From: a virus
DNA length: 26,280 nucleotides
Reading direction: 5' to 3' (one strand)
Virus record (IMG/VR): IMGVR_UViG_3300031601_000028
Coordinates: 1 to 26,280 of that record
A program made the position numbers and the translations under genes. Positions within the stretch are counted from its first letter, which is position 1. The number at the start of each line of letters is the position of its first letter. Of the stretch, positions 2,527 through 26,280 are shown one piece after another. Below the pieces are notes generated by a model. The model had not been told where the DNA came from, searched no databases, and was given only the letters and a program-made list of their open reading frames with translations.

Positions 2527-2725
2527 TGATAAAAAAAGGATATTATTGTTAGAAGTATCAAGAAGGGCGTTTGATCTTGAAACAACAGTTGAATTTTTAG
2601 ACGAAGTTATAGAACCATTGCTTGAATTGTATAACAAAAATGAAAAGTTTCTTGGATTGGATAAATTAGATTTCAAAAGCGTAGGGGAACCACCGACTAA
2701 AGAAGTAATTGAAAAAAAATATTAA
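2489..2725 (+). CDS. Hypothetical helical protein, 78 aa
   Basis: ATG 2489 is preferred to an in-frame ATG at 2468, because GGAGG (2478-2482) lies six bases upstream of 2489 and nothing fits the earlier codon. The product is charged and helical (MGYFKEKIAKLDDDKKRILLLEV...) with an acidic middle (TTVEFLDEVIEPLLELY). It is the last gene before a rho-independent terminator at 2755, so it closes the transcription unit begun at about 282. No family recognised. Confidence 0.55.
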   Translation: MGYFKEKIAKLDDDKKRILLLEVSRRAFDLETTVEFLDEVIEPLLELYNKNEKFLGLDKLDFKSVGEPPTKEVIEKKY

Positions 2726-2754
2726 CGAGTGCAAACATTATACAAAGAGATAAG

Positions 2755-2779
2755 AGGAATCCGAAAGGGTTCTTTTTTT
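2755..2779 (+). terminator. Rho-independent terminator
   Basis: Stem GAATCC (2757-2762) and GGGTTC (2767-2772) with a GAAA loop and one G-U pair is followed by seven T residues (2773-2779). It ends the early small-gene operon and immediately precedes a new promoter. Confidence 0.75.
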
Positions 2780-2803
2780 ATGTGAAAGTTTATTAAATAG
2801 TTG

Positions 2804-2832
2804 TTGACAGATACGGCAATTAGATGTATAAT
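2804..2832 (+). promoter_or_regulatory. Consensus sigma-A promoter, TTGACA-17-TATAAT
   Basis: Both boxes match consensus exactly (TTGACA 2804-2809, TATAAT 2827-2832) with a 17-bp spacer. It is the strongest promoter seen in the window and drives the 137-aa and 51-aa genes, a unit closed by the terminator at 3459. Confidence 0.85.
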
Positions 2833-2862
2833 AGGTTATAGAAATTTAGGGAGGTACCACAG

Positions 2863-3276
2863 ATGAAAACAGAAATTACGAGAACAGTTAAATCGGCAAC
2901 AGGAACAGAAATGAATATCACAGTCGTGCAAACTAAAAATCACGATACAGCATACATGGATGGACAGAGAACAGAATTGAAAACATACGTACACACATTA
3001 GAAATATCAATAGAAATACCAAAACTAAACATCGCAGTAACCAGATCATCAATGCCATACAAAAAAGACGGCGGATATTACATAGAAAATGCAACGGTTA
3101 ATGGAAAGTCTCACCCAATCTGCATAGATGAAAAAGCATACATGGAATTAGTAACAATGATTAATACGGAAATGGTTGAAATGCCAGTAGCTGAAACAGA
3201 AACTACAATTGACATAATGAAATCAAATGTTTGTCCAATATGCGGAACATACTGCTATGGTGATTGTCAGTTATAA
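2863..3276 (+). CDS. Hypothetical protein with C-terminal Cys4 zinc motif
   Basis: A 137-aa protein with an unusual A- and C-rich codon bias. The N-terminal ~110 residues are strand-rich (EITRTVKSATGTEMNITVVQ..., VHTLEISIEIPKLNIAVTR). The extreme C-terminus reads CPICGTYCYGDC, a C-x2-C...C-x3-C arrangement that could bind one zinc ion. ATG 2863 follows GGGAGGT by a normal distance and lies directly downstream of a consensus promoter. The role is unknown; promoter strength suggests abundant expression. Confidence 0.6.
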   Translation: MKTEITRTVKSATGTEMNITVVQTKNHDTAYMDGQRTELKTYVHTLEISIEIPKLNIAVTRSSMPYKKDGGYYIENATVNGKSHPICIDEKAYMELVTMINTEMVEMPVAETETTIDIMKSNVCPICGTYCYGDCQL

Positions 3277-13864: not shown

Positions 13865-13877
13865 AGGAGGTAAAAAT

Positions 13878-14273
13878 ATGATTAAGGCTTACAATTTAGA
13901 CAAAAAAGCAATCAACACAATGCTTGACGATGGAGTAGAGCTAGAAGGTTTTATTGGTGGGTTTAAAGTTACTGACTTGACTGCCGAAGTGGTAGGATTG
14001 CCGAATTGCGAAGATATAACTTACACACAAAATGATGACGAAGTTGAGACTATCGCGAGACGTAATCTGACGGTTGATGAATATTTTGGCACGAAGAGAG
14101 AAGTTGACGGAGTAACCTATGTATACGCACAGATTAAGCGAGGGAAGAATTATAACTATACCACAGGTGCAGAATTAATTATATTAAGAGATTTATTTGG
14201 TAAGGAAAATTTGCTTACCAAAAGTGAGTGGAATGATTTAATTGTCGAAATTCCAACCGAAACTATGATTTAG
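13878..14273 (+). CDS. Unknown protein, first of a paralogous pair, 131 aa
   Basis: AAGGAGGT precedes ATG 13878. Function not recognised. It aligns along most of its length with the 151-aa product at 14591: M-L-D-D-G-x-x-L-E-G-F-x-G-G-F near residue 15-29, then V-E-T-x-x-x-x-x-L-T-V-D-E-Y-F (about 55-69), Y-V-Y-A-x-I-K (77-83), and Y-N-Y-x-x-G-x-E-L-x-I (about 90-101). Small mixed alpha/beta protein without membrane segment. It sits between the large surface protein and the connector genes, so a virion accessory role is possible but not shown. Confidence 0.6.
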   Translation: MIKAYNLDKKAINTMLDDGVELEGFIGGFKVTDLTAEVVGLPNCEDITYTQNDDEVETIARRNLTVDEYFGTKREVDGVTYVYAQIKRGKNYNYTTGAELIILRDLFGKENLLTKSEWNDLIVEIPTETMI

Positions 14274-14319
14274 CTTTAAGTAATCTTATAAAATTGTCAT
14301 TTTATGAGATGTGAAAATA

Positions 14320-14350
14320 GACCCCTGTAACCGTTGCAATCACAGGGGTT
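14320..14350 (+). repeat. Perfect 8-bp inverted repeat (hairpin)
   Basis: ACCCCTGT (14321-14328) and ACAGGGGT (14342-14349) form a perfect GC-rich 8-bp stem, plus one G-U pair, with a 13-nt loop. There is no T run after it, so it is not a standard terminator. It lies 53 bp upstream of the small disrupted gene at 14403 and could be a processing or attenuation structure, or an insertion scar. Confidence 0.6.
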
Positions 14351-14402
14351 CAGCACCAAAAAAGTGGAATAAAAGCAAAAACTACTACTTTTGGAGGAAA
14401 AC

Positions 14403-14568
14403 ATGGCAGAAGACAAAATGTTACCAGAATGTGCAGAAAAAAATCGGCAAAATAGAAAGTCAAATATGTACTATTTTTAAAAAAATGAATACTATGGATG
14501 ATATTAAAGATATTGCCACAAAACTATCTGTTTTAATGGAAAGAAATGAAATAGATAATATAAAATAA
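14403..14568 (+). pseudogene. Small gene broken at a 7-A run
   Basis: TTTTGGAGG precedes ATG 14403, a convincing translation start. The frame from this ATG gives MAEDKMLPECAEK and then reaches TAA after 25 codons. If one A is removed from the A7 run at 14437-14443, the frame continues as IGKIESQICTIFKKMNTMDDIKDIATKLSVLMERNEIDNIK and stops at 14568, a plausible 54-aa helical protein with XhlA-like charge pattern but no membrane anchor. Explanations are a real inactivating indel, homopolymer phase variation, +1 slippage during expression, or a sequencing error. The 25-aa product alone looks meaningless. Confidence 0.5.
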
Positions 14569-14590
14569 TAAATTATGAAAGGAAAACTAA

Positions 14591-15046
14591 ATGGTAACAA
14601 TTAAAGGTGAAATGACTAAAGAAAAACTCAAAAGATACATGGACGAAGGAAACACCGTAGAAGGTTTCAAAGGTGGCTTCATGTGTGCTAACCTTGACGC
14701 GCCAGTTGACATCAGATTACCCCATTCTGTCAATGTGGAGTGGGTACAAGATGTAAAGGGCGAGGTTGAAACTTCAATCGAAACTGTATTGACAATCAAG
14801 GAGTATTTCAACAACATTGAGGATAACTATGTGTTTGCTAATGTACGAACAAAGACCAAAGGCATCTACAACTATCCAAACGGCGAACAGTTAAAAATTA
14901 TGATGGAAATGTTCGACGGCGATAACATAGTTGAGGAACTTGATTTCAAAGTTAAGGTGGCTGATATTAAGTTTGCGAAGGCTTCGATTGATAAAGAGAT
15001 CATTGAGAAAGAGGTAATAGAGAAGGTGGAAAAAATTGTTAAATGA
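14591..15046 (+). CDS. Unknown protein, second of a paralogous pair, 151 aa
   Basis: ATG 14591 follows GAAAGGAAAA. It is the paralogue of the gene at 13878, sharing Y-M-D-E-G-x-x-V-E-G-F-x-G-G-F near the N-terminus, V-E-T-S-I-E-T-V-L-T-I-K-E-Y-F in the middle and Y-N-Y-P-N-G-E-Q-L-K-I later. It has an extra C-terminal helical tail of about 25 residues (IDKEIIEKEVIEKVEKIVK) that looks like a coiled coil. Its end overlaps the connector gene at 15036 by 11 bp, tying it translationally to the head-completion module. Function unknown. Confidence 0.6.
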   Translation: MVTIKGEMTKEKLKRYMDEGNTVEGFKGGFMCANLDAPVDIRLPHSVNVEWVQDVKGEVETSIETVLTIKEYFNNIEDNYVFANVRTKTKGIYNYPNGEQLKIMMEMFDGDNIVEELDFKVKVADIKFAKASIDKEIIEKEVIEKVEKIVK

Positions 15047-15485
15047 GATACTAAATTATCTAAATAATTATTTCGCTGATACGGATTATTCATTTGAAAC
15101 AGCTTGCACCTTTACAGCTTCGGATACAATAGCCGGGGATTTTGCAGATACTTACATAATGGGGGAATACATTAGAATCAAAGATACACGCTTGAACGAC
15201 GGTGTTTACCTAGTCAAAACTGTATCGGACATAGAAATAACTATTGATGCTACAGTTGATTTGACAGTTAGGACAGAAGCAGAAGTCACGGCAAAGATCA
15301 CAAAAGCCGATATCCCCAGGGATTTGATTTCATTAATAGCAGAAATAAAAACATACAACACTAGCGGAATAGTACCGATTGCAAGCGAATCACAAGGAAA
15401 CAGAAGTGTAACATATGTAAAAGATTCATCATGGAAATCAGTATACACTGGAATGCTTTCGAACTACAGAAAATTGAGGTGGTGA
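15036..15485 (+). CDS. Head-tail connector protein, SPP1 gp15/HK97 gp6-like
   Basis: An adaptor that docks under the portal and starts the head-tail interface. It is 149 aa from a TTG start at 15036, which has AAGGTGGA six bases upstream and overlaps the preceding gene. The N-terminal helix (LNEILNYLNNYF), a strand-rich middle (GEYIRIKDTRLNDGVYLVKTVSDIEITI) and the C-terminal helix after DIPRDLISLIAEIKTY, then SVTYVKDSSWKSVYTGMLSNYRKLRW, follow the gp15-like pattern. The call rests mainly on order: it precedes a gp16-like, a gp10-like and a tail terminator-like gene. Confidence 0.75.
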   Translation: MLNEILNYLNNYFADTDYSFETACTFTASDTIAGDFADTYIMGEYIRIKDTRLNDGVYLVKTVSDIEITIDATVDLTVRTEAEVTAKITKADIPRDLISLIAEIKTYNTSGIVPIASESQGNRSVTYVKDSSWKSVYTGMLSNYRKLRW

Positions 15486-15486
15486 A

Positions 15487-15804
15487 ATGTTTCAAACCGA
15501 TACAGTATATTTACAGACAAAAGTAGAAACCAATACATTGGGTTCAATTGCTATAGTTTGGACAAAAGGAACTGCGGTTATTTGCGACGTTCAAGACATC
15601 AACAAGGAATATGTATTTGTAAACTATGGATTAACAGGAGCTAGTGAGTACAAGCAAATATTCGACCATACACAAGCTTCTTGGGTATTAGGGGAACAGG
15701 TATCTTACTTGGATGAGCAATGGCTTGTAAGGCTTGTTAATAAGAATATGGGTAAGATCGGAAACTCTAATCACATTTATGTTATAATAAGCAAGGTGAT
15801 TTAA
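15487..15804 (+). CDS. Head closure / head-tail joining protein, gp16-like
   Basis: A 105-aa beta-rich protein (TDTVYLQTKVETNTLGSIAIVWTKGTAVICDVQDI ... EQVSYLDEQWLVRLVNKNMGKIGNSNHIYVIISKV) matching the size and strand pattern of SPP1 gp16-type stoppers, which seal the filled head and bind the tail. Start ATG 15487 lies one base after the previous stop, with GAGGTGGTG as RBS. It shares one base with the next start (TAATG). Confidence 0.7.
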   Translation: MFQTDTVYLQTKVETNTLGSIAIVWTKGTAVICDVQDINKEYVFVNYGLTGASEYKQIFDHTQASWVLGEQVSYLDEQWLVRLVNKNMGKIGNSNHIYVIISKVI

Positions 15805-16211
15805 TGAAAACCTCAGATCCAAAAGTTATGCAAAAGATATTTGCTAAGAAATTCAAGGCGGTAGCTGATAATATCGACGAATCATTAATAGAGATTGGCG
15901 AACGCGGGGTAAATTACTTGAAACTTGAATCGCCAGTTGATAGTGGAAGGCTAAGGGGTTCAATGTCATACCTGGTAAATAAAAAGGTTTATACTCCAAT
16001 ATGGGACAGTGAGAACAAAGATGGCGACGAACTTAAAAAGAAGAAAGAAAAAGATTCAGTTATAATTGGCACAAATGTTATATACGCACCTTCAGTAGAA
16101 TATCTTGCAAAGAACGGTTCGGCAGGCTTTATGTACAAGGCTTACAAACAAACTAAAAAGGTAGCAAAAGATATATTTAAAAAAGGCATGCAGAAGGGGA
16201 TGAAGAAATGA
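15804..16211 (+). CDS. HK97 gp10-like tail completion protein
   Basis: A 135-aa protein of the HK97-gp10 family. The mark is G-x-x-x-L-K-L-E-S-P-V-D-S-G-R-L-R-G-S-M (about residues 35-54), followed by strands, the segment VIYAPSVEYLAKNG, and the terminal helix with many lysines. Such proteins help attach or complete the tail. ATG 15804 overlaps the previous stop; its end overlaps the next gene by 4 bp (ATGA). Confidence 0.82.
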   Translation: MKTSDPKVMQKIFAKKFKAVADNIDESLIEIGERGVNYLKLESPVDSGRLRGSMSYLVNKKVYTPIWDSENKDGDELKKKKEKDSVIIGTNVIYAPSVEYLAKNGSAGFMYKAYKQTKKVAKDIFKKGMQKGMKK

Positions 16212-16564
16212 AAACAGAAACTCAACTAAGAGCAGAGGTTTACAATGCAATTACAAGTATAGCAACGGTTTCATGGTTATCAAAACCCACAACATCAGAT
16301 GCATTCCCCCTTATGACCTATCAATTACTTTCTTCTTCGAGCGAATACAGTTTCGGAGTGGTCAGAAGTGCAGAAGATAGAGCATTTCAGATAGATTTGT
16401 ATGTTGCGCCGGATGATATAGTTAATGGTGACAATAAGCTCGATGCAATAAAAACAGCAATGGAAAATATTGACTATAGACAATCAGGAAGTACAGCAGA
16501 ATTTCTTGACACAGACTTGAATAAAGTTATAAAAGTCACACGATGGGAGCGGTACAATGTTTAA
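16208..16564 (+). CDS. Tail terminator protein
   Basis: A 118-aa protein with the layout of SPP1 gp17 / DUF3168-type tail terminators. An N-terminal helix (TQLRAEVYNAITSI) leads to P-T-T-S-D-A-F-P-L-M-T-Y-Q-L, then strands that include AEDRAFQIDLYVAPDD, a second helix and a last strand VIKVTRWERYNV. These proteins cap the tail tube and join it to the head. ATG 16208 is coupled to the preceding stop by ATGA. Confidence 0.75.
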   Translation: MKTETQLRAEVYNAITSIATVSWLSKPTTSDAFPLMTYQLLSSSSEYSFGVVRSAEDRAFQIDLYVAPDDIVNGDNKLDAIKTAMENIDYRQSGSTAEFLDTDLNKVIKVTRWERYNV

Positions 16565-16748
16565 AAAGTTATGGGATAGAATATCAGGTAAAAAATATAA
16601 CGAAATGGACAAGGTGCTTTTTGACCTGGGGAACAAATTAGATAGTTTAATTAGACAGCAGAACAAGAAAAACAAGGAAATTGATTCAAGGCTACAACAA
16701 ATTTACAACGAATCTCATCCACAAGTGATGGGACAAAAGGAGAAATAA
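16557..16748 (+). CDS. Small basic helical protein, 63 aa
   Basis: Overlaps the tail terminator gene by 8 bp and starts at ATG 16557 with GGGAGCGG upstream. The protein is lysine- and glutamine-rich with a long helix (KVLFDLGNKLDSLIRQQNKKNKEIDSRLQQIY). It is not recognised. A gene of this size is often absent between terminator and tube genes, so it may be a lineage-specific addition. Confidence 0.55.
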   Translation: MFKKLWDRISGKKYNEMDKVLFDLGNKLDSLIRQQNKKNKEIDSRLQQIYNESHPQVMGQKEK

Positions 16749-16749
16749 G

Positions 16750-17163
16750 ATGGCAATTAAAGGATGCGGAGCAAGTTTTTATTTAGGAGCTAATGCAGTA
16801 GCAGAACTGAACAGTGTATCAAATGCGATAACTGGTGAAACTCTTGATGTTACAACTTTTGACAGTTCGTGCTTGAAAGAGTTCATAGCTGGTATAAGAA
16901 GCGGAACAATGGACATATCAGGTTTTTATGACCCGACTGACGCAACTGGCCAAGCTGCTATGTTTACCGCCTTGTTGGCAGGAACAACACTTACAACTAC
17001 ACAACAACCAAAGATTTTATACGATGCAACAAACGGATTCAGTGCAGATGGTGTTATTTCTTCATTGTCTACTTCAGCTAGTGTTGACGGCACAGTTGAG
17101 TTTTCAGCATCAATACAGCTTACTGGTACAATTACAGTAGAAATAGCAGTAGAAACAGCGTAG
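16750..17163 (+). CDS. Tail tube protein
   Basis: A 137-aa protein with the features of siphovirus tube subunits. The N-terminal strand begins the ring fold (KGCGASFYLGANAVAELNSVSNA), followed by G-E-T-L-D-V-T-T-F-D-S (a loop and strand typical of these proteins) and I-A-G-I-R-S-G-T-M-D-I-S-G (strand). The C-terminal part reads DGTVEFSASIQLTGTITVEI. AAGGAG lies ahead of ATG 16750. Its place after the terminator and before the chaperone and tape measure agrees. No sheath gene accompanies it, arguing against a contractile tail. Confidence 0.82.
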   Translation: MAIKGCGASFYLGANAVAELNSVSNAITGETLDVTTFDSSCLKEFIAGIRSGTMDISGFYDPTDATGQAAMFTALLAGTTLTTTQQPKILYDATNGFSADGVISSLSTSASVDGTVEFSASIQLTGTITVEIAVETA

Positions 17164-17175
17164 GAGGTGTTATAA

Positions 17176-17769
17176 ATGGCACTACAAGGACATTTAGTTG
17201 AGATTTTATCAGCATCAACAGGAACAGCAATGACGGATGAAGCCACAACAACAGCCGATGATACCATATATCAAATCACAGACTCAGCAAAAAGGATAAT
17301 AGATTTAAACACCGCAATAGTGGTTGAAGATTCCACAGTTACAACAACAGAAAAATATACAATTGACTATCTGAATGGCAAGATCACATTTGATAGTGTT
17401 GATGCAGGAAGGGCTATAACTGTAACAGGTGCGTACCTAACACCCACAACAGTAGCGACAGCCGACGAATACTCTTTTAATGGTGTATCAGACGTGTTAG
17501 AGAAAACACCCTTTCACGTTAATTATAAGGAGTTTGAATCTGGGTTAGTTACTGCAACAATAACACTAGGAAGATTCTTTGTAACAGACGATTTATTCAC
17601 AGATGACATATTAAATGGCAAGTATAAAATAATAGTTATAAATGTGGATGATACACACAGCATCAAAGCGTATGGACTATTAACATCAACCGGAGTAGAT
17701 TCACCAGTTGAAGGATTAGTTAAAGAATCAATGAACTATCAAGTCACAAATCAAATAGAGGTTGCATAA
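17176..17769 (+). CDS. Second tail-tube-like protein
   Basis: A 197-aa strand-rich protein directly after the tube gene, with AGGAGGTG before ATG 17176. The N-terminal half contains an add-on (ALQGHLVEILSASTG ... YTIDYLNGKITFDSVDAGRAITVTGAYL) that resembles an N-terminal domain in other phage tail proteins. The C-terminal half (FESGLVTATITLGRFFVTDDLF ... YKIIVINVDDTHSIKAYGLLTSTG) again looks like tube-fold strands. It may be a second tube subunit or a tail-tip adaptor. Only position and strand pattern support this. Confidence 0.6.
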   Translation: MALQGHLVEILSASTGTAMTDEATTTADDTIYQITDSAKRIIDLNTAIVVEDSTVTTTEKYTIDYLNGKITFDSVDAGRAITVTGAYLTPTTVATADEYSFNGVSDVLEKTPFHVNYKEFESGLVTATITLGRFFVTDDLFTDDILNGKYKIIVINVDDTHSIKAYGLLTSTGVDSPVEGLVKESMNYQVTNQIEVA

Positions 17770-18099
17770 ATGAAAAAAGATTTATTTGAACTAAAATTAA
17801 AAGAAGAATCAATCGAGATAGAAGGTAATAAAATAATAGTAAAAGAACTTACGGCAGGAGAAGCATCAAAGTATCAACATTCTTTGTATACATTTGTTAG
17901 CGGAAAGCCAGTGGTAAAGGTTGAAGCTGCGGAATTGAAGTTGATAATTCTTACATGCCACGATGAAGAAGGTAATAAATATTTTGAAATGTCAGATTTA
18001 GAGAACATTAAAAAAATGCCTTCGAGAATATCAGAGCAATTATACAACATTGCTAAAAAATTAAACGATCCTCCAAAGGAAGAAGTAGTAAAAAACTAA
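17770..18099 (+). CDS. Tail assembly chaperone, unshifted product (gpG analogue)
   Basis: A 109-aa chaperone that coats the tape measure during tail assembly. The sequence (MKKDLFELKLKEESIEIEGNKIIVKELTAGEASKYQHSL...) has a strand-rich N-terminus and helical C-terminus of the usual type. The last codons are GTA AAA AAC TAA, so the stop lies directly after an A AAA AAC heptamer at 18090-18096, the place where a -1 shift yields the longer product. It starts immediately after the previous stop (TAAATG). The tape measure gene follows, as in lambda-like G/GT/H order. Confidence 0.82.
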   Translation: MKKDLFELKLKEESIEIEGNKIIVKELTAGEASKYQHSLYTFVSGKPVVKVEAAELKLIILTCHDEEGNKYFEMSDLENIKKMPSRISEQLYNIAKKLNDPPKEEVVKN

Positions 18100-18210
18100 C
18101 AAGCAATCCATTCAGGCTGTTTTTATATCGTTTAGCTTGCGAACTAGGAAAGACGGTTCGTGAGTTAGAACGAGAATTAACAGCAACAGACGTTGCAGAA
18201 TGGATTGCTT
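18090..18210 (+). promoter_or_regulatory. Programmed -1 frameshift signal with long-range stem
   Basis: The slippery heptamer A AAA AAC (18090-18096) fits the X XXY YYZ rule and is followed at once by the zero-frame TAA. After a 4-nt spacer, AAGCAATCCATTC (18101-18113) is perfectly complementary to GAATGGATTGCTT (18198-18210). This is a 13-bp stem closing an 84-nt loop, all inside the shifted coding region. A downstream stem at this distance is the expected stimulator; long-range pairing of this kind is less usual than a local hairpin or pseudoknot. Confidence 0.8.
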
Positions 18211-18251
18211 ACTTTGAATATCTTGAAGAATTGAGAGGTGATAAAAAGTGA
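18096..18251 (+). CDS. Tail chaperone extension made by -1 frameshift (gpT analogue)
   Basis: This frame has no independent start codon at its head or RBS, but codes a well-formed helical segment, N-P-F-R-L-F-L-Y-R-L-A-C-E-L-G-K-T-V-R-E, then LERELTATDVAEWIAYFEYLEEL, the type of sequence that ends shifted tail chaperones in Firmicute phages. After slippage on A AAA AAC (18090-18096) reading resumes with CTA at 18096, adding 51 residues to the 109 of the upstream frame (160 aa in all) and ending at TGA 18249-18251. The end overlaps the GTG start of the tape measure by four bases. The shifted product should link the chaperone to the tail tube subunit. Confidence 0.82.
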   Translation, partial: LTSNPFRLFLYRLACELGKTVRELERELTATDVAEWIAYFEYLEELRGDKK

Positions 18252-19786
18252 TAGACGTAGGAACGCTAGTGATGAAAGTTGCAGCTGATACAAGCAAGTT
18301 TACGAGTGGAATCGGTAAAGTGACTAAGTTAGTTGGTGGAATTGCTAAAGCAGCAGCAGTTGCAGGATTAGCAGCAGGAGCAGGACTTGCAGCGATAGGT
18401 AAACAAGCTATAGATTTAGCACAAGAGCAAGAACAAGCAGAAGCAAGACTCGAAAGTATAGGTAAAAAAGTTGCTGGTGCAACAGATTTGCAGATTGAAA
18501 GTTTGAAAGAGTTAGCTGCCGAAACACAAAAATACACAACATTCGGTGACGAAGTCATAATTGCTGGTCAATCTCAAATATTGTCTTTTGGAGCAACAGC
18601 AGAACAAACAGAAGCTTTAACAGGTTCGTTGGTTGATATGTTAGCAGCTACAAAAGGAACTACAGCAACTCAAGAAGATGCTATCAATGCAGCTAATATC
18701 TTAGGTAAGGCATTAGATGGACAGGCTGGATCTTTGAGTCGTGTTGGTATATTGCTTAACGAAGAACAAGAAGCACTTATTAAGAACGGAACACAAGCAG
18801 AGAGAGCAGCAGCGCTTGTGGACATACTAGAATCCAATTATGGAGGATTAGCAGAAACACTTGCCAAAACTTCAGCAGGACAAATGCAACAAGTTAAAAA
18901 CGCACTTGGCGATATAGGAGAAAGAATAGGCTTTATGCTTCTTCCAAAACTTAATGATTTTTTAAAGTGGGTTACGTCTAATATGCCAAAGATTGAATCA
19001 TTTCTTACTAAGGCAATGGATAATGGAGTAAAAGCATTTGACTATGCAGCTAACTTTGTAGATACAAAACTAATACCTATTTTTAATAAAATTAGCGATT
19101 GGTGGGCAATAAATGGAGAAGCAGTAGGCACAAAGTCAAAGGAAATCTTTGACAAAGTTGTAGCAAATGCCAAAATAATGTGGGACTTTTTCACAGTTCA
19201 TATAATGCCAATGTTAAGTGATTTTGTGGGATTTGTTATGGAAAGAGTGCCGCCAATATTTGATGTAATGAAAAGGGTATTCGACGGAATAATGAAAGTA
19301 GTCAAACCAGTATGGAATATATTTGAGAAAGTATTGTATCCGGCAATTAAATTAGTTGTAAATTATGCAATGGATCATCTTGAAAGTTTGCTAGATATCA
19401 CAACAACAGTATTTGAAGCTATGCTTTCACCAATACAAAGTGTAGTTGAAGTTATAAGTGGTATTGTGGATTGGTTCGATAAGCTATTCGGAAAGATGGA
19501 CGATTACTCTAACAAAGATATAAAAGCGCCAAAGGTTGAAACACCGCTAGGGTTTGATGATGGACTACCCGAGTTAGGCACAAACACCTATACACCAGGG
19601 ATTTTAACAGCACAACAGTTGTCAGGTAGCAACGAATCAGTTACGCCAATGACAAGCAATTCAAGAAGCAAAGCAGGAGATGTAAACATAACTATTAGCA
19701 ATCCATCATTTAGCAACAAACGTGACGTAGATAGAACCATGAACCTAATGGTAGGCAGATTGAAACTTGAGGGAGTGAATCCATAA
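18248..19786 (+). CDS. Tail tape measure protein
   Basis: A 512-aa protein that sets tail length and is ejected with DNA. It starts at GTG 18248 within the stop of the chaperone extension (GTGA), after GAGAGGTG. The N-terminal VMKVAADTSKFTSGIGKV is the usual opening of these proteins. A hydrophobic Gly/Ala segment follows (LVGGIAKAAAVAGLAAGAG, about 28-47), then helices such as EQEQAEARLESIGKKV and QYTTFGDEV-like blocks. A typical motif LSRVGILLNEEQEALIKNGTQAERAAAL lies near 170. The C-terminal part has membrane-active helices and a polar end. At about 0.15 nm per residue the tail would be near 75 nm; that figure is a rule-of-thumb inference. The stop overlaps the next ATG. Confidence 0.88.
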   Translation: MIDVGTLVMKVAADTSKFTSGIGKVTKLVGGIAKAAAVAGLAAGAGLAAIGKQAIDLAQEQEQAEARLESIGKKVAGATDLQIESLKELAAETQKYTTFGDEVIIAGQSQILSFGATAEQTEALTGSLVDMLAATKGTTATQEDAINAANILGKALDGQAGSLSRVGILLNEEQEALIKNGTQAERAAALVDILESNYGGLAETLAKTSAGQMQQVKNALGDIGERIGFMLLPKLNDFLKWVTSNMPKIESFLTKAMDNGVKAFDYAANFVDTKLIPIFNKISDWWAINGEAVGTKSKEIFDKVVANAKIMWDFFTVHIMPMLSDFVGFVMERVPPIFDVMKRVFDGIMKVVKPVWNIFEKVLYPAIKLVVNYAMDHLESLLDITTTVFEAMLSPIQSVVEVISGIVDWFDKLFGKMDDYSNKDIKAPKVETPLGFDDGLPELGTNTYTPGILTAQQLSGSNESVTPMTSNSRSKAGDVNITISNPSFSNKRDVDRTMNLMVGRLKLEGVNP

Positions 19787-22161
19787 TGGCTTATACACTA
19801 AAAATAAATGCAGTAGATAAAACCTCTTTATGGCTTCGACCTTCAACGGTTATTGAAAAAGGTGCAGATGATAAGAATTATGCAGAATTTCAGTTAATAG
19901 CAAAAGCTACAGACTTGGGCGCTAGTGATGGATTAATAGCAGGACAAGATGTTAAGATATACGAAGATACAACACTTATATTTGGGGGAGTGGTCAAAGA
20001 ATTTAAGATGGACAACTATGAGCCAGGCATAGGGAGCGATAAAAAGCTCCTTGTGTCAGTAAGTTGCAAGGATTACAACGACATTCCATCGAGAAGAGTA
20101 ACTTCATCATATTTCACAACTACGACAGCAGGAGCCATTGTGACAGCTATGGTTGACGATGTATTGGGCTTAACAGGATACGATGAAGGAATCACAGCCG
20201 GAACTATTTCAGCCGGTGCAACAATCGACATTTACTCAGTTAATGCAAAGACAGCTAAAGAAGTTCTTGACGACATGGCAGAAGCTTCAGGGTTCAAATG
20301 GTACATTAACAATGCAAAAGAATTAAACTTTATAGAAGATGATACCGTCACCGCAGCAGCACACGAACTACTAGAAACGGCACCAACATTCACAGATTTT
20401 AATATCACTAGAGTTTCAATATCACTAGAAAACTACCGTAATAAACAGTGGGTAACTGGATCGGTCGATTCAACAGGAACACTTGTCAATGTAGCGGTTG
20501 AAGACGCAGTGGAAATAACAGCAAGAGCAGGAATCGAGGGTGGTTCGGGTGTTTATGGAAATGTTATAAGTTCCGACGAATCACAGGACAGCACAGACGC
20601 AGAAGCGGTAGGGGACAACGCAATCAAGCGTTATGGTACAATACCCTATGTAATAGAATTTGAATCAGGTACTAATGACTGGGTGGCAGGGACAAAATTA
20701 AAGGTTAATGTTCCGTCAATGGGAATAAACACAGATACTTACTTCTTGATTGAAAATGTAACCCTTGAAGATGTTGGAACAGTTTTTAGGTCAGTAATAA
20801 CAGCCACAAGGCGAGATGGTACGGAGTTTTCAACACAGAGGTCAGAAGGCAGCATTGAATATTTCGCAAAGATGGCAAAGAAAGCAAGTGCAGCCAGTTC
20901 GACAGTTGGAGATGTGGAAGTTCAAACACTTGAAGTAGCTAACGAAACAGCCTATACAGCGTTTACAACTGAACAAGTATTGGATAGTATAGATGTTGAC
21001 TTCAAAGAAGATACGATAATGAATTTTCAAGTTAGAACGGATTTGACAGCTTCGGAGACGTCAGCTTATACGGTGAAATTAAGAGTTGATGGAGTAGCAG
21101 AAAAAACAACAGTTTGGTATATGGCAGACACAAACAAAGATGGCAGAATGTTCAACGGTGCAATAACAGGCATAGCAGCAGGAACCAAAACAGTTGACGT
21201 AACAGTGACACCAGTATCAGGAAATGGTACAATAGCAATAGATGAGTATCAATTGACTTTGATTATTGCGGATTCAGTGGTTGAACCAGTAGAATCGGGA
21301 GCCTCCGACGGTTATGTTTTAGGTGGCGAAAATTCCGTCGGCACTAAAGTATTGACAAATGATGGTTTTAACCCCGAATTAAATGCGTGGACAAATAAAA
21401 CAGACCTGCCAAGTCCGGCAAGAGAGGAATTTCCAACGGTTAATATATCGGGTAAAGGTTATACTTTTGGGGGCAATGATTTAGGTGGAGGAATCCAAGA
21501 TAATGATGAATACGATTCGTCAGGTAACAGTTGGGCAAATAAAACAGACCTGCCAAGTCCGGCAAGGTACGCGGCAGGTGGGTTCGCTATTGACGACAAA
21601 GGTTATATATTAGGCGGTTACACGAGTTATTTATCAGATAATGACGAATATAATCCAATAGGTAACAGTTGGGCAAATAAAACAGACATACCCAGTCCCG
21701 CAAGGCGATATTTGCAGGGTGCTTATGCAGACACTAAGGGCTATATAATGGGCGGTAGAGCAGCTAGTACAGATTACAGATACGGTTTATCGGATAACGA
21801 TGAATACGATGCCTCCGGGGACAGTTGGGCAGCTAAAGCTAATATGTTGCTAGGTATGCAGCATCCGGGTATGGCTTCCATGTCGGGCAAGGTGTACGTA
21901 TTTGGGGGCTATGGTGCAGTTGCAGCCCAGACAAGGACTGACGAATACGATCCGAGCGGAAATAGTTGGACAAATAAAACACCAATGCCCAGTCCGGCTA
22001 GATATGCGAGTGCGTGTTTTTCTGTTAAGGATAAAGGGTATAGCTCGGGAGGGTATAAGAATTTATCGGACACTGATGAATATAACCCTACAGGAAACAG
22101 TTGGACAAGTAAAGCAAATACATTAGCTTCGAGAGAATACGCTTCCGGAGTTGCGTTATAG
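19786..22161 (+). CDS. Tail hub protein fused to jelly-roll and Kelch propeller
   Basis: A 791-aa tail-tip protein. Residues about 1-345 look like a gp27/gpD-type hub (ATG in TAATG with the tape measure). Features are the IFGGVVKEFKMDNYEPG strand pair, the DYNDIPSRRVTSSYF segment, the helix AKEVLDDMAEASGFKWYIN followed by KELNFIEDD, and late strands GINTDTYFLIENVTLEDVG. A beta-sandwich follows (about 380-500; AYTAFTTEQVLDSIDVDF..., then YTVKLRVDG). Residues 507-791 contain six Kelch repeats, each with a G-G pair, a D-E-Y and an S/A-W about 45-50 residues apart. No separate Dit gene is seen between tape measure and lysis genes, so this protein may combine hub, adaptor and receptor-binding roles. 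The Kelch disc is the likely cell-surface ligand. Confidence 0.75.
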   Translation: MAYTLKINAVDKTSLWLRPSTVIEKGADDKNYAEFQLIAKATDLGASDGLIAGQDVKIYEDTTLIFGGVVKEFKMDNYEPGIGSDKKLLVSVSCKDYNDIPSRRVTSSYFTTTTAGAIVTAMVDDVLGLTGYDEGITAGTISAGATIDIYSVNAKTAKEVLDDMAEASGFKWYINNAKELNFIEDDTVTAAAHELLETAPTFTDFNITRVSISLENYRNKQWVTGSVDSTGTLVNVAVEDAVEITARAGIEGGSGVYGNVISSDESQDSTDAEAVGDNAIKRYGTIPYVIEFESGTNDWVAGTKLKVNVPSMGINTDTYFLIENVTLEDVGTVFRSVITATRRDGTEFSTQRSEGSIEYFAKMAKKASAASSTVGDVEVQTLEVANETAYTAFTTEQVLDSIDVDFKEDTIMNFQVRTDLTASETSAYTVKLRVDGVAEKTTVWYMADTNKDGRMFNGAITGIAAGTKTVDVTVTPVSGNGTIAIDEYQLTLIIADSVVEPVESGASDGYVLGGENSVGTKVLTNDGFNPELNAWTNKTDLPSPAREEFPTVNISGKGYTFGGNDLGGGIQDNDEYDSSGNSWANKTDLPSPARYAAGGFAIDDKGYILGGYTSYLSDNDEYNPIGNSWANKTDIPSPARRYLQGAYADTKGYIMGGRAASTDYRYGLSDNDEYDASGDSWAAKANMLLGMQHPGMASMSGKVYVFGGYGAVAAQTRTDEYDPSGNSWTNKTPMPSPARYASACFSVKDKGYSSGGYKNLSDTDEYNPTGNSWTSKANTLASREYASGVAL
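21301..22158 (+). repeat. Six Kelch repeats, partly near-identical in DNA
   Basis: Six units of about 138-160 bp. A 31-bp identical block recurs at 21392-21422 and 21536-21566, and a 27-bp identical block at 21523-21549 and 21661-21687, whereas later units are more diverged. Each protein unit runs Y-x-x-G-G ... D-E-Y-x-x-x-G-N-S-W-x-x-K. The first unit lacks the full D-E-Y strand and the last ends with the strand ASGVAL, which suits circular closure of a six-blade disc. Confidence 0.85.
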
Positions 22162-22170
22162 GAGGAAAAA

Positions 22171-22515
22171 ATGAATATAAAAGCAAAGATATTTTACGAT
22201 GTTTTAAACAGAGATATAAAAGCAAATAGAGTGGATATAATAACATTTTTAGAGAGCAAAGACTGCGATGCTAAAGTTGAAACTTTGAAAAGTCAAATTT
22301 CAACAATCCCAACAGATACAAAGCATGGTAAAAAGATAGATTTCGTTAGAACAAGAGACAGCAAGTCAAAGGTGATAATGAGCCAAGTTCTCCAAGATAT
22401 TGACGATGTACCGGAAATTATTCAAACTTGGGCAGAAGGCAGAGCCTATGACAGCTTTTTAAATAGTTGCCTTGACTATTTGTACAGCAAGGAAGTTGAA
22501 AGAGCCACCGCATGA
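22171..22515 (+). CDS. Hypothetical protein, 114 aa
   Basis: AGGAGG lies ahead of ATG 22171. The product is mixed helical and charged (MNIKAKIFYDVLNRDIKANRVDIITFLESKDCD...), with a C-terminal helix YDSFLNSCLDYLYSKEV. It has no recognised motif. It stands between the tail hub and a 210-aa unknown and ends in an ATGA overlap with the latter. A tail-tip assembly or chaperone role for the long Kelch protein is possible by position only. Confidence 0.55.
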   Translation: MNIKAKIFYDVLNRDIKANRVDIITFLESKDCDAKVETLKSQISTIPTDTKHGKKIDFVRTRDSKSKVIMSQVLQDIDDVPEIIQTWAEGRAYDSFLNSCLDYLYSKEVERATA

Positions 22516-23144
22516 CAGATATTAACGAACTATTAAAAGACCATCAATTATATCATTCAGATTTTCAAATGGACAGATTTATCACAATGAGATCAGGCGG
22601 TACGGAATACGGACAATATAAGCAGGCACTAAGGGAACTGGACAAAAGACGCAGAGGGTTAAAAGAATTATACGTTGAAAAAGCACTCTTGAAACTTGAA
22701 ATCAACAAACTAAATTTTCCAATTATCAGACACTTCAAAAAGAACAAAATTAACAATGGTAAAAAAATAATGGCAATGGAAGATTTGGACAAGAATATAT
22801 TTGATACAGAAAGAGAGTTTAAACGGTTCTACTCACAAGCCGAATGTTTAAAAGTTAAGATCGGTGAACTAACACCCGAAAAGAAAGAACAACTTGAAAT
22901 TGAAATGTGGGAGTTCAAGATTAAAGAATTATGCTTATTGGATCAGGTTTCAACTGGTAAAGTTTCAAAGAACACCTACGAATTAATAGGGGTTTGTCCA
23001 CCCAATATAAGAAAAGAACTTCTAGGGTTTACAAATCCTGCAAATTTAAACAAGTTAGGGGAATGGTACGACGCACAATACCAGGAAGAATACGAGATCA
23101 TCCAACTTCCTGATATTCCGATTAGGAAACTACTAGAGGGATAA
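22512..23144 (+). CDS. Conserved-type phage protein of unknown function, 210 aa
   Basis: Starts at ATG 22512 in the stop of the previous gene. The protein is helical and charged with long heptad-like stretches (LRELDKRRRGLKELYVEKALLKLEINKL; MAMEDLDKNIFDTEREFKRFYSQAECLKVKIGELTPEKKEQLEIEMWEFKIKELCLL). The combination E-Y-G-Q-Y-K-Q-A-L-R-E-L (about residues 32-43) and Y-S-Q-A-E-x-L-K with G-E-L-T-P-E recalls an uncharacterised family I associate with phages of other bacteria, including marine ones; this is from memory and moderate. C-terminal part PPNIRKELLGFTNP is less conserved. No enzyme motif. Confidence 0.55.
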   Translation: MTDINELLKDHQLYHSDFQMDRFITMRSGGTEYGQYKQALRELDKRRRGLKELYVEKALLKLEINKLNFPIIRHFKKNKINNGKKIMAMEDLDKNIFDTEREFKRFYSQAECLKVKIGELTPEKKEQLEIEMWEFKIKELCLLDQVSTGKVSKNTYELIGVCPPNIRKELLGFTNPANLNKLGEWYDAQYQEEYEIIQLPDIPIRKLLEG

Positions 23145-23147
23145 TAC

Positions 23148-23462
23148 ATGATAGAATTTGTAGAACAAAACATAATAGTAATTGCTATGGGTGGGATTGT
23201 ATCTGCCGGAGGTGTAGGGTTCAGATACTTGAAATGCAAAGTAGATGAAGTACAACATATAAAAGATTGCGTTCTCGCAATTAATGCAGATAGATTAGAA
23301 CATCTATGCGAAAGAGCAATCGAATCAAAAGTTTGTTCATTCAACGACAGAAGAAAAATCAAAAGATTATTTGTGGCGTATGAGGGATTAGGCGGTAACG
23401 GATATTTAAAAGAAATGGTAGGCATTGTTTATAATTTACCTTACGAATTGGAGGAACAATAA
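23148..23462 (+). CDS. Holin-accessory type membrane protein, 104 aa
   Basis: One N-terminal transmembrane segment (IIVIAMGGIVSAGGVGF, about 9-25) is followed by a soluble helical part, RLEHLCERAIESKVCSFNDRRKIKRLFVAYEGLGGNGYLKEMV. The R-L-x-x-L-C-x-x-x-I-E ... L-x-x-A-Y-x-x-L-G-G-N-G pattern is common in small proteins coded beside holins in Firmicute phages. It starts 3 bp after the previous stop and overlaps the next ATG by one base. Likely part of the lysis cassette; exact role not known. Confidence 0.7.
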   Translation: MIEFVEQNIIVIAMGGIVSAGGVGFRYLKCKVDEVQHIKDCVLAINADRLEHLCERAIESKVCSFNDRRKIKRLFVAYEGLGGNGYLKEMVGIVYNLPYELEEQ

Positions 23463-23794
23463 TGGATATATTGACTTTAATGGTCGTGTTTTTCTTATTA
23501 GCAACAATAATTAAAATTGCAACAGATAACATTGTATCAATCTTGAAGCCTTTTAAAGACTTTCAAGAGTTCAAATTAATAATAGCATTGGTGATAACTG
23601 GGTTTGGCGTAAGTGGATTAAATATAGGAGTTCTTCAGACACTAAACATTATTGGAGAAAATAGCCTTTATTGGTTCCATTACTTTGATATTACATTAAC
23701 AGTGTTGTTTTTAACTTCAGGAGCACAAGCAATACACAAGTTATCCGATGCTTGGACAGAATACAAGAAAGCACCCACTAACACAGCCATTTAA
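23462..23794 (+). CDS. Holin-like protein with three membrane segments
   Basis: A 110-aa protein with hydrophobic segments at about 4-22 (LTLMVVFFLLATIIKIATD), 39-58 (LIIALVITGFGVSGLNIGVL) and 75-92 (FDITLTVLFLTSGAQAI). A charged C-terminal tail is SDAWTEYKKAPTNTAI. Size and topology fit a class I-type holin that opens the membrane for the endolysin encoded next. The ATG overlaps the preceding stop (TAATG, with GGAGG upstream). Confidence 0.7.
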   Translation: MDILTLMVVFFLLATIIKIATDNIVSILKPFKDFQEFKLIIALVITGFGVSGLNIGVLQTLNIIGENSLYWFHYFDITLTVLFLTSGAQAIHKLSDAWTEYKKAPTNTAI

Positions 23795-23804
23795 ATTAAT
23801 TAGA

Positions 23805-23855
23805 CTACGGATTGCTTGCTTAAAGTGTAAAAACTTGTCGTAGGCAATCCTTTTG
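23805..23855 (+). terminator. Possible weak terminator with interleaved inverted repeats
   Basis: GGATTGC (23809-23815) pairs with GCAATCC (23844-23850), followed by TTTTGCTTT. A second inverted pair, CTACG (23805-23809) and CGTAG (23839-23843), interleaves with the first, so the two stems are alternative. The loop is long for an intrinsic terminator. It lies between holin and endolysin. Confidence 0.4.
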
Positions 23856-23871
23856 CTTTACAGGAGGAAAT

Positions 23872-25071
23872 ATGATATATACGGTAACTTATGCACACTT
23901 AAAAGAAATAAAATGTTATAAAAACCAATTAGTCAATTATAATGATGAAATTGGCATCATTGGAAACTCAGGAGCGAGCGACGGAATACATCTGCACATT
24001 GATTGTGTTGAAGGGAAACACCTTGCTAGGGATTATACCTTAATGAACATTTACACAGGTAATCCAAAGTCGTCTAAAAAACAACTTGATTATTTTATAT
24101 CGCATGATTTATTCCAATTCAAGTATAATATTCGTACAGAGTACAACGCACTTGAATATTTCAAATTATATAAAAGACAGCATCCAGGATATGACATAGT
24201 ACCTGATGATAGAAAAACCACAACGGGACACTACACAGTTTATTATAATAGAAAATTTACAGGAAGGGTGGTATTTGCCGGCTTCAATAAGTATTACGGT
24301 AATCACGTTATGATTTGTTATGATACACTGGATTATTTGGAGAAAGAAGAAATCAACATACCCGAAGTAATCGCACCGAAACCAGTTCTATATAATGACG
24401 TAGGGAGCGAATATCTGGGGCATCAAGGCACTTTGTATTCAATGACAAGCAAACATACCACTAACCATACATTCGGGCAGATAGAGGACATTAGATATAT
24501 AAAAGTAAGACCGGAGAATCTAGGAATCGTAGTGGGAAATAGTAGAATTATGGATCTTGACTATCCAGGAGTAAATGGAACATTCTTCTGGTGGGACAAT
24601 GCAGGAAACCCATACCCGACAAGTATATTAAAAATAAAAGATAATATCTTACGAGCAGAATCGAACCATGGACCCTGTCCACAATCTGTATTATGTTACT
24701 ACACAGACGGAAAACTTGGGATTGAAGTTGTCAACAATGTATCAGAGTTATCCAAGCCTACCCATTGGGCAATTGGTGGAGTTGGCTTATACAACAAAGA
24801 TAACGAAGGATTTACTGGTGCTTATGCAGATATATGGAGAAAGGCAAACCATACCAGTATAGGATATGATTCAGAGGGGTTCATCTACCTTGTGCGGTCT
24901 TGGAATGTATTAAGGGTACAAACTATCGACCATATGAAGAAACTTGATTGCGTAGCTTATATGGGACTAGATAGCGGAAGTAGTAATCAAATCAAAACAA
25001 AGGACTGGCAAAGACCTACAAATAAATATGATTGCAGAAAAGTAAATACTTTACTGGTTGCACTTAAATAA
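23872..25071 (+). CDS. Endolysin: permuted M23 peptidase plus phosphodiester glycosidase-like domain
   Basis: A 399-aa lysis or wall-active enzyme after the holin; ATG 23872 has CAGGAGG. Residues 3-48 match the second half of an M23 (LytM-type) zinc peptidase: YAHL with H9, then GIIGNSGASDG and H40-L-H42. Residues about 85-155 match the first half: H104-P-G-Y-D108, then FTGRVVFAGFNKYYGNHVMI. The normal order is H-x-x-x-D, strands, YxH, HxH; here the halves are swapped, yet H9, H40, H42, H104 and D108 are all kept. Residues about 205-398 resemble the NAGPA/phosphodiester glycosidase fold: GVNGTFF (233-239), the AIGGVGLY block (300-307), HTSIGYDSEGFIYL and GLDSGSS (365-371, usually D-G-G-G-S-S), then VNTLLVAL. 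No signal peptide, agreeing with holin-dependent release. Catalytic activity of the permuted domain is inferred. Confidence 0.75.
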   Translation: MIYTVTYAHLKEIKCYKNQLVNYNDEIGIIGNSGASDGIHLHIDCVEGKHLARDYTLMNIYTGNPKSSKKQLDYFISHDLFQFKYNIRTEYNALEYFKLYKRQHPGYDIVPDDRKTTTGHYTVYYNRKFTGRVVFAGFNKYYGNHVMICYDTLDYLEKEEINIPEVIAPKPVLYNDVGSEYLGHQGTLYSMTSKHTTNHTFGQIEDIRYIKVRPENLGIVVGNSRIMDLDYPGVNGTFFWWDNAGNPYPTSILKIKDNILRAESNHGPCPQSVLCYYTDGKLGIEVVNNVSELSKPTHWAIGGVGLYNKDNEGFTGAYADIWRKANHTSIGYDSEGFIYLVRSWNVLRVQTIDHMKKLDCVAYMGLDSGSSNQIKTKDWQRPTNKYDCRKVNTLLVALK

Positions 25072-25086
25072 CAAAAGTAGTATAAT
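25058..25086 (+). promoter_or_regulatory. Promoter at end of endolysin, TTGCAC-17-TATAAT
   Basis: TTGCAC (25058-25063), a 17-bp spacer and TATAAT (25081-25086). It lies in the last codons and stop of the endolysin gene. Transcription would start near 25093 and read into a region without a plus-strand protein gene up to the terminator at 25213. Confidence 0.65.
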
Positions 25087-25092
25087 TAATCT

Positions 25093-25239
25093 ATCAGGTA
25101 CAGCGGATTTATAAATTTTAACAACAATAATTGTGTTTCATCTTTTCGACAAAGACCGCTGCACCAAGCAATCATACTTTTTTTAGAAATACCTCCTTCA
25201 TTTATTTTTAAGAAGCCACTCCTATCAGGGTGGTTTTTT
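25093..25239 (+). ncRNA. Candidate structured noncoding RNA after the lysin
   Basis: A transcript of about 147 nt would run from the promoter at 25058-25086 to the terminator at 25213-25239. No plus-strand ORF with an RBS lies in it. GGTACAGCGG (25097-25106) pairs with CCGCTGCACC (25156-25165), ten base pairs with one mismatch, enclosing 49 nt. Downstream, ACCTCCTTC (25191-25199) is an anti-Shine-Dalgarno-like stretch; on the minus strand it is a perfect GAAGGAGGT. The RNA could be antisense to a short minus-strand reading frame (25086-25175) or target RBSs in trans. Expression is not shown. Confidence 0.4.
25213..25239 (+). terminator. Rho-independent terminator
   Basis: CCACTC (25216-25221) pairs with GGGTGG (25228-25233) with one G-U pair and a 6-nt loop, followed by six T residues. 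It closes the candidate RNA unit started at 25093 and also lies downstream of the endolysin. Confidence 0.75.
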
Positions 25240-25250
25240 AGTGCCAAAAG

Positions 25251-25259
25251 TGATATAAT
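25251..25259 (+). promoter_or_regulatory. Possible extended -10 promoter, TGATATAAT
   Basis: TG-N-TATAAT at 25251-25259 matches the extended -10 form; there is no good -35 box, as the region upstream is the T run of the previous terminator. It would give a ~75-nt RNA ending at the terminator at 25314-25341. Confidence 0.35.
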
Positions 25260-25313
25260 AAGCTATTCATAGTTGCTAGGGTAACTCATGTATATAATAA
25301 ATGTTTTAGGGCA

Positions 25314-25341
25314 AGCCACCTTTTAGTAGGGGTGGTTTTTT
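25314..25341 (+). terminator. Rho-independent terminator
   Basis: CCACC (25316-25320) pairs with GGTGG (25331-25335), extendable inward with a bulge, followed by six T residues (25336-25341). Its 3' part is very like that of the terminator at 25213 (GGGTGGTTTTTTA), suggesting duplication. Confidence 0.7.
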
Positions 25342-25366
25342 AATGCGAAATTATCGAGTAGTTGGA

Positions 25367-25389
25367 ACTTGTAAGGATTACTTACAGGT
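25367..25389 (+). repeat. 9-bp inverted repeat touching the -35 box
   Basis: ACTTGTAAG (25367-25375) and CTTACAGGT (25381-25389) form a nine-pair dyad with one G-U type mismatch and a 5-bp centre. It is flanked by direct repeats GTTGGAA. It abuts the -35 element of the replication gene promoter, so it may be an operator for a phage repressor or activator. Confidence 0.55.
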
Positions 25390-25417
25390 TGGAATAGTTC
25401 TTTATTTATGGTATAAT
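25389..25417 (+). promoter_or_regulatory. Promoter of the replication-type gene, TTGGAA-17-TATAAT
   Basis: TTGGAA (25389-25394), a 17-bp spacer and TATAAT (25412-25417), with the dyad at 25367 immediately upstream. It gives a leader of about 88 nt before the ATG at 25512. Confidence 0.75.
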
Positions 25418-25423
25418 ATAGGC

Positions 25424-25511
25424 AAGTGGGACATGGTCTAATTAGCCTTTCTCCGAAAACCTACGTAAAGTAGGAGATTACCACTAAAATAATTCTACGT
25501 GGGAGAACTAA
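25424..25511 (+). promoter_or_regulatory. Structured 5' leader with alternative RBS pairing
   Basis: Within the leader, CCTAC/GTAGG (stem around 25460-25474, GTAAA loop) competes with TTCTCC (25449-25454) pairing to GGAGA (25473-25477). The same TTCTCC can also pair with GGAGAA (25502-25507), which is the RBS of the gene at 25512. The leader can therefore fold with the RBS free or blocked. It does not match a riboswitch class I know. Confidence 0.4.
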
Positions 25512-26180
25512 ATGCAAACTATTTATCGTGTCAAAAAAGATAAGGATAATCCTTATGTAATGATTAACAAAACTATATTTGAAAATGGTCTATCGCTTAA
25601 AGCTGTAGGCTTATTGTCGTATATGCTAAGTTTACCAGATGATTGGCGATTTTATGAAATTGAATTAATCAAACATTTTAAAGATGGAAGGTCCGCTATT
25701 AGGTCAACCATGAAAGAATTAATTGAAGCAGGGCATATAGTAAAACATAAAGTACCATCCGTTAAAGGAAAGTTTACAGGTTATGATTATACTATTTATG
25801 AGATACCCAAACCGTGTGCGAAAAACCGACACGGTAAAACCGACACGGATAATCAAACACTACTAAGTATTGAAGAACTAAATAATAAAGAGACTAATAC
25901 TTACATCATAGCTGAAGCTAATGACGATAGTGTTTCTTCTTTAAAATCCATGAAGAATATAGAAGATATAAAATTCGGAATATTTAGAGATGCTTATATA
26001 AACCTATTAGGTATGGAACCAAGAAAAACAAGGCTAACAGAATTCACGAATGAAACGCTTCAGTATATAGATGAAGAAGGTTTCTTTGAGGTAGTAGTTG
26101 AATTCTTTGAACAATGCAAGTATGATCCTGATAAATGCACAGCGGATTATATGGACACAGTAGGAGATAGATATTTATAG
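25512..26180 (+). CDS. Winged-helix replication-type protein
   Basis: A 222-aa protein whose N-terminal ~95 residues match the helix-turn-helix domain common in Firmicute phage and plasmid replication proteins. Marks are YVMINKTIFENGLSLKAVGLLSYMLSLPDDWRFYE, then L-I-K-H-F-K-D-G-R-S-A-I-R-S-T-M-K-E-L-I-E-A-G-H-I-V and the wing strands GKFTGYDYTIYE. A polar linker follows, and a helical C-terminal domain (about 150-222; FRDAYINLLGMEPRKTRLTEFTNETLQYI ... DPDKCTADYMDTVGDRYL) loosely like a DnaD-type end, but this is weak. It would bind origin DNA or load the helicase loader. RBS GGGAG is at 25501. Being downstream of lysis genes, it begins a new module. Confidence 0.65.
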   Translation: MQTIYRVKKDKDNPYVMINKTIFENGLSLKAVGLLSYMLSLPDDWRFYEIELIKHFKDGRSAIRSTMKELIEAGHIVKHKVPSVKGKFTGYDYTIYEIPKPCAKNRHGKTDTDNQTLLSIEELNNKETNTYIIAEANDDSVSSLKSMKNIEDIKFGIFRDAYINLLGMEPRKTRLTEFTNETLQYIDEEGFFEVVVEFFEQCKYDPDKCTADYMDTVGDRYL

Positions 26181-26181
26181 G

Positions 26182-26210
26182 TTGATACAATAAAGGCAAT
26201 CTGTTATAAT
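26182..26210 (+). promoter_or_regulatory. Promoter, TTGATA-17-TATAAT
   Basis: TTGATA (26182-26187), a 17-bp spacer and TATAAT (26205-26210), directly after the stop of the replication-type gene. A terminator follows only about 45 bp later, so it makes either a ~60-nt RNA or an attenuated leader for a gene beyond the window. Confidence 0.75.
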
Positions 26211-26252
26211 ATAGGAAGAGATAGAAACGGTCATAATAGTAATTCAACTGGG

Positions 26253-26280
26253 AAAGAGCCTTTCAAGGGGTTCTTTTTTT
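26253..26280 (+). terminator. Rho-independent terminator at window end
   Basis: AGAGCC (26255-26260) pairs with GGTTCT (26269-26274) with one G-U pair, extended by two A-T pairs into the T run (26274-26280). Together with the promoter at 26182 it bounds a transcript of about 64 nt with no start codon in it. Confidence 0.75.

Follow-up and report, generated by a model that had tools for sequence, protein, structure and literature searches.

M23 is among the most widespread families of cell-wall peptidases, and it includes lysostaphin. In the LytM/lysostaphin type of M23 (Pfam PF01551; PDB 4zyb and 4lxc), HxGxD comes first in the chain, followed by YxH and then HxH. A review of the family names two conserved motifs, H(x)nD and HxH, puts the remaining catalytic histidine about 30 residues ahead of HxH, and nowhere mentions permutation (PMC9662197). 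Natural circular permutation does have a precedent in cell-wall hydrolases, namely the NlpC/P60 families YaeF/Poxvirus G6R and LRAT-like (PMC6403190), but these have a papain-like cysteine fold that is unrelated to the zinc fold of M23.

We analyzed 26,280 nucleotides of viral DNA (all of the stretch from position 1 to 26,280 of IMG/VR record IMGVR_UViG_3300031601_000028), which we will call the window. It contains a lysin gene that matches M23 but has YxH and HxH first and HxGxD last. The best explanation, to which we assign a probability of about 0.82, is that this gene encodes a phage endolysin comprising a circularly permuted M23 zinc endopeptidase and a NAGPA-like domain. The relevant features are:

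23148..23462, + strand: 104-aa phage protein, phrog_4105/4257, belonging to the lysin's gene block
23462..23794, + strand: 110-aa protein with two predicted membrane segments (hydropathy), holin-like by position
23862..23867, + strand: AGGAGG ribosome-binding site, 4 bases upstream of the lysin's ATG (read directly)
23872..25071, + strand: lysin gene, 399 aa, permuted M23 plus NAGPA-like domain (open reading frame and profile matches)
23878..24015, + strand: normally C-terminal M23 half, residues 3-48, with YAH (H9) and HLH (H40, H42), placed first
24016..24120, + strand: linker, residues 49-83, between the former C- and N-termini, with a predicted helix at 66-77 and low confidence elsewhere
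24121..24321, + strand: normally N-terminal M23 half, residues 84-150, with HPGYD and the GRVVFAGFNKYYGNHVMI strands, placed second
24181-24195, + strand: HPGYD motif (H104 and D108), in the second M23 half
24571..25059 (within 24394-25068), + strand: NAGPA-like C-terminal domain, residues 234-396 (PF09992, below cut-off, E = 0.0058)

The lysin's N-terminus reads MIYTVTYAHLKEI...GIHLHIDC, then the linker, then ...LYKRQHPGYDIVPDD...TGRVVFAGFNKYYGNHVMICYD. The AGGAGG site supports the start at 23872, and with it an M23 domain that truly begins at YAH. Between the gene for the two-membrane-segment protein and the lysin, at 23809-23857, there is an inverted repeat (GGATTGC...GCAATCC) followed by TTTTGCTTT. 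This is possibly a terminator, which would cut the lysin off from the preceding gene.

The lysin passes the family cut-off of PF01551 (39.6 bits versus 28.7 bits), with residues 3-46 aligning to profile positions 45-88 (E = 6.1e-10). Positions 21-40 are weakly matched (E = 0.16) by a fragment that includes the second M23 half; this half has diverged, carries several additional residues behind the zinc aspartate, and on its own falls below the Pfam cut-off. We also used a custom profile of 136 positions, for which we took 38 M23 domains in the normal order from the loci that we retrieved. Residues 3-48 correspond to custom positions 76-121 (E = 5.9e-14 for one sequence), and residues 84-150 correspond to positions 14-72 (14.2 bits alone; E = 1.9e-6 for one sequence). 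When the second segment was shuffled 5,000 times, no shuffle reached its score, and the best had 11.1 bits. The two pieces are complementary: just three positions are missing between them, and together they cover a nearly complete M23 domain.

A sequence-only reading of this DNA had noticed that the half with YAH and HLH precedes the half with HPGYD, which is the opposite of the standard order, and that all of the zinc-binding and catalytic residues survive. The profile alignments bear this out. H104/D108, H9, and H40/H42 are numbered as in that reading and lie at the profile-aligned positions, so that HxxxD, YxH, and HxH are all kept, but they occur in the order YxH, HxH, HxxxD instead of HxxxD, YxH, HxH, and the custom profile's own domains are normally ordered. 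Because the profile matches and the residues are present while the normal order is not, we class the lysin as a permuted variant of M23. A search of all frames of the record found no other M23 sequence, so the missing first half is not elsewhere in the record.

One might instead view the gene as a decayed relic. In that case, a truncated C-terminal half of M23 would be followed by an unrelated segment, or by the remnant of a second copy, at 84-150, and the NAGPA-like domain would do the work. That only the first half exceeds the Pfam cut-off fits this idea, as does the low confidence of the middle linker in the structural model described below. Yet the second half outscores 5,000 shuffles, complements the first half almost exactly, and retains its histidine and aspartate; the 399-codon frame is unbroken and has a good ribosome-binding site; and the same logic recurs in a second virus. 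We consider a relic to be unlikely. The swapped order, complementary coverage, full set of ligands, and intact gene fit a circular permutation and not decay, in line with the earlier reading, which had argued this from the surviving residues and the intact linker.

To model the domain, we gave AlphaFold2 residues 1-175 of the lysin along with an alignment of normal M23 fragments and two natural tandem junctions, arranged in permuted order. Since the fragments were placed in this order, the model is not independent of the permutation hypothesis. It has one compact domain formed from both halves (pLDDT 68, pTM 0.69). Confidence is highest in the core (residues 1-48 and 131-151, near pLDDT 90), and about 47 residues in all are below 50, at 50-67, 85-93, and the tail. 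Within the second half, strands were modelled at 107-109, 121-124, 131-139, and 143-151. A pTM of 0.69 despite so many low-confidence residues suggests that the halves are positioned against each other.

Structural searches with this model gave little. Foldseek against PDB and BFVD returned chance-level rows without M23, and the rows from VIA-align were barrel-sandwich-type domains (HlyD, RNA polymerase inserts, and DUF2118) that aligned across both halves with Z below 4. Both aligners keep to the order of the chain and cannot match a permuted M23 well with normally ordered ones, so the absence of M23 from these rows is not decisive.

The flexible linker in the model raises another alternative: two molecules might exchange halves and form an intertwined dimer whose active sites are normal. 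Proteins that have separable halves are known to undergo domain swapping. On the other hand, the linker of about 35 residues permits closure within the chain, as does the short linker of the second permuted protein (below), and single-chain models of both proteins are compact. We view a swapped dimer as quite improbable and favor closure within one chain.

The second permuted protein came from scanning IMG/VR for YxH, then HxH 33 residues on, then HxGxD 50-70 residues later. This pattern was found at eight loci: at six, a normal M23 gene matches by chance, one is from the virus of the window, and the remaining one (L129; IMGVR 3300027985_000858, 2692-3108) encodes a permuted M23 of 138 amino acids that is about 34% identical to the window's. 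The protein reads ...GKREYGNTVYTQDDLGNRFLYAHLKEI...GPHLHYG...IDPSDYL...PVENGVISNPYGRVFSIEELGIKNRKHMGVDFV-stop. Its zinc motif HMGVD, which is first in normal M23, lies at the extreme C-terminus. Against the custom profile, positions 61-132 are matched first and positions 8-38 second, and none of 5,000 shuffles scored as well as the second piece. The gene and its neighbors share a few codons at their ends, as is typical of phage genes, and the gene upstream contains no M23 sequence.

The AlphaFold2 model of L129 has a pTM of 0.73; the terminal strand with the zinc aspartate is near pLDDT 77, and the residues that precede it are below 50. Residues 1-103 of this model align with LytM 220-316 (Z = 12.0, rmsd 1.5 Å) and with lysostaphin 289-384 (Z = 12.8, rmsd 1.4 Å). 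The histidine and aspartate of HxGxD are H210/D214 in LytM and H279/D283 in lysostaphin. As the match begins at LytM 220, L129 opens with everything that normally follows HxGxD and closes with the relocated HxGxD half. We also considered whether L129 is short of ~20 residues, given the gap at profile positions 39-60, and rejected this because the structural match starts at LytM 220.

L129 and the lysin of the window share the reversed order and a complete catalytic set, and both are phage genes beside membrane-protein genes. L129 differs in that it stands alone (138 aa), without a NAGPA-like domain, and has a short linker. The cut points also differ: L129 was opened just after HxGxD, while the window's protein was opened in the loop before YxH. 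Given the different cuts and the low identity between the two proteins, two independent permutations are the simplest explanation, and from their sequences we think that they are likely to be two separate events. A single permutation whose ends shifted later is a less simple but conceivable alternative.

More broadly, the M23 fold appears to tolerate natural circular permutation. We lean towards the view that permutation of M23 has occurred two or more times, independently, in phage lysins, with different cut points, that both proteins are active with a normal zinc site, and that these are the first natural permutations of the family. The sequence-only reading had thought that the arrangement would be new. 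Our searches of open-access PMC papers, which found no permuted M23, agree with this, but the window's virus is not the only carrier, since a second virus also has one.

Searches for further cases, for homologs with the normal order, and for a duplicated intermediate, the latter two as proposed in the sequence-only reading, yielded 53 M23 open reading frames in the retrieved loci. Forty of these are whole and in the normal order, two are tandem (both bacterial), and the 11 reversed ones are copies from just two viruses, that of the window and that of L129. When viral and genome contigs were scanned with single proteins, the only close M23 relative to emerge was the same virus. With a strict pattern that required a start codon just before YAH, only the virus of the window matched; with a looser start-codon pattern, the matches listed were otherwise only normal M23 or chance matches; and patterns with a TAC codon or with a shorter linker had no match. 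Six loci from the genome scan were in normal order (four) or tandem (two), and none was permuted. The closest phage and plasmid matches to the first M23 half, among those examined, also have the normal order. Because the scan patterns fix the spacing from YxH to HxH at 33 residues and fix the range of linker lengths, the count of two permuted viruses is a minimum.

From a natural permutation one learns which loops of M23 can open and that its former ends can be connected. Permuted M23 proteins allow the assembly of the fold to be tested directly, and they offer new termini for enzyme fusions. They also expose a weakness of profile searches, which report only half of such a domain; permuted lysins may therefore be recorded as truncated.

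Another conceivable explanation is that an assembly or genome-rearrangement artefact swapped the two halves of the gene. The window is a metagenomic contig, and a separately assembled viral contig with an identical lysin gene, IMGVR 3300031645_000040, may share its sample. However, both halves, the linker, and the third domain lie in a single open frame; the two contigs, which differ elsewhere, agree base for base at the lysin gene; and L129 is an independent case in an unrelated virus. We give an artefact almost no weight and take the swapped order to be that of the virus.

The two contigs are identical across 13785-26280 of the window and differ at 51 sites, all within 13359-13784. They are from the same virus population, and possibly from one sample. 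Because it is the same virus, the second contig backs the assembly but does not count as evidence on evolution. All of the differences fall in a repeat region (VTGDVADIKAT repeats) of an 898-aa gene at 11168-13864, while the other 12.5 kb that the contigs share is identical; this suggests either rapid repeat-driven change or assembly trouble in the repeats. The second contig (L001:8410-12489) also runs past the end of the window, where, by reading, there are candidate RecT-like (307 aa) and HNH-like proteins.

The gene's neighborhood hints at its role. The gene order is tail genes, the 104-aa protein, the gene for the two-membrane-segment protein, and the lysin, with a DnaD-like replication protein downstream. 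Lysis cassettes are usually located after the tail genes. Here, a wall hydrolase lies in that position beside a gene for a membrane (holin-like) protein, so the lysin is most likely an endolysin; judging from gene order and domain content, we would call it probably a phage endolysin. The 110-aa two-membrane-segment protein gave no family match.

The lysin's C-terminal region (residues 175-399) scores 17.3 bits against PF09992 (phosphodiester glycosidase), for which the cut-off is 25. The domain is 40% identical to that of another phage lysin, L006 (1976-3286 of IMGVR 3300025834_000016), which passes the cut-off (E = 1.8e-8). We call the domain NAGPA-like because it misses the cut-off itself and its kinship runs only through L006. 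In both proteins, a C-terminal NAGPA-like domain is fused to a wall hydrolase, but the catalytic domain of L006 is Amidase_3 instead of M23. The LDGGGS motif of NAGPA-like relatives is LDSGSS in the window (domains compared: 24394-25068, L006:1976-3286, and L003:221-943).

We propose the following scheme. The old C-terminus would have been joined to the old N-terminus by the linker of about 35 residues, and the loop that immediately precedes the YAH strand would have opened to give new chain ends. Both halves would pack into the usual M23 fold, with H104, D108, and H42 binding zinc and H9 and H40 activating water. Once the holin-like protein opens the membrane, the enzyme would cut the peptide cross-links of the host's peptidoglycan by normal M23 chemistry. 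The NAGPA-like domain may target, bind, or cut a wall glycopolymer.

Circular permutations usually arise by tandem duplication and then loss at both ends, and this permutation may have arisen in the same way, by tandem duplication and trimming. We looked beyond residue 150 for a remnant of the duplicated YAH strand (TLDYLEKEEINI versus TVTYAHLKEIKC), and the similarity was within chance (154 of 2,000 shuffles were as good). As possible intermediates, we found only two tandem M23-M23 proteins, L140 (from Calditrichaeota) and L141. At their junctions, the second half of one domain is followed by the first half of the next within one chain, as expected for a duplication intermediate. Unlike the window's lysin, they contain two whole, normally ordered domains, and they are bacterial proteins, not lysins of this phage. 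Overall, we consider an origin by duplication to be plausible.

Two other observations concern phage genes. One phage contig (L135) has two different M23 genes, at 1329-1910 and 2158-2730, with a gene for a small membrane protein between them. And in the tail region of the window, a 791-aa protein (19786-22161) has C-terminal kelch repeats (PF24681, PF01344) that are about 84-97% alike in DNA.
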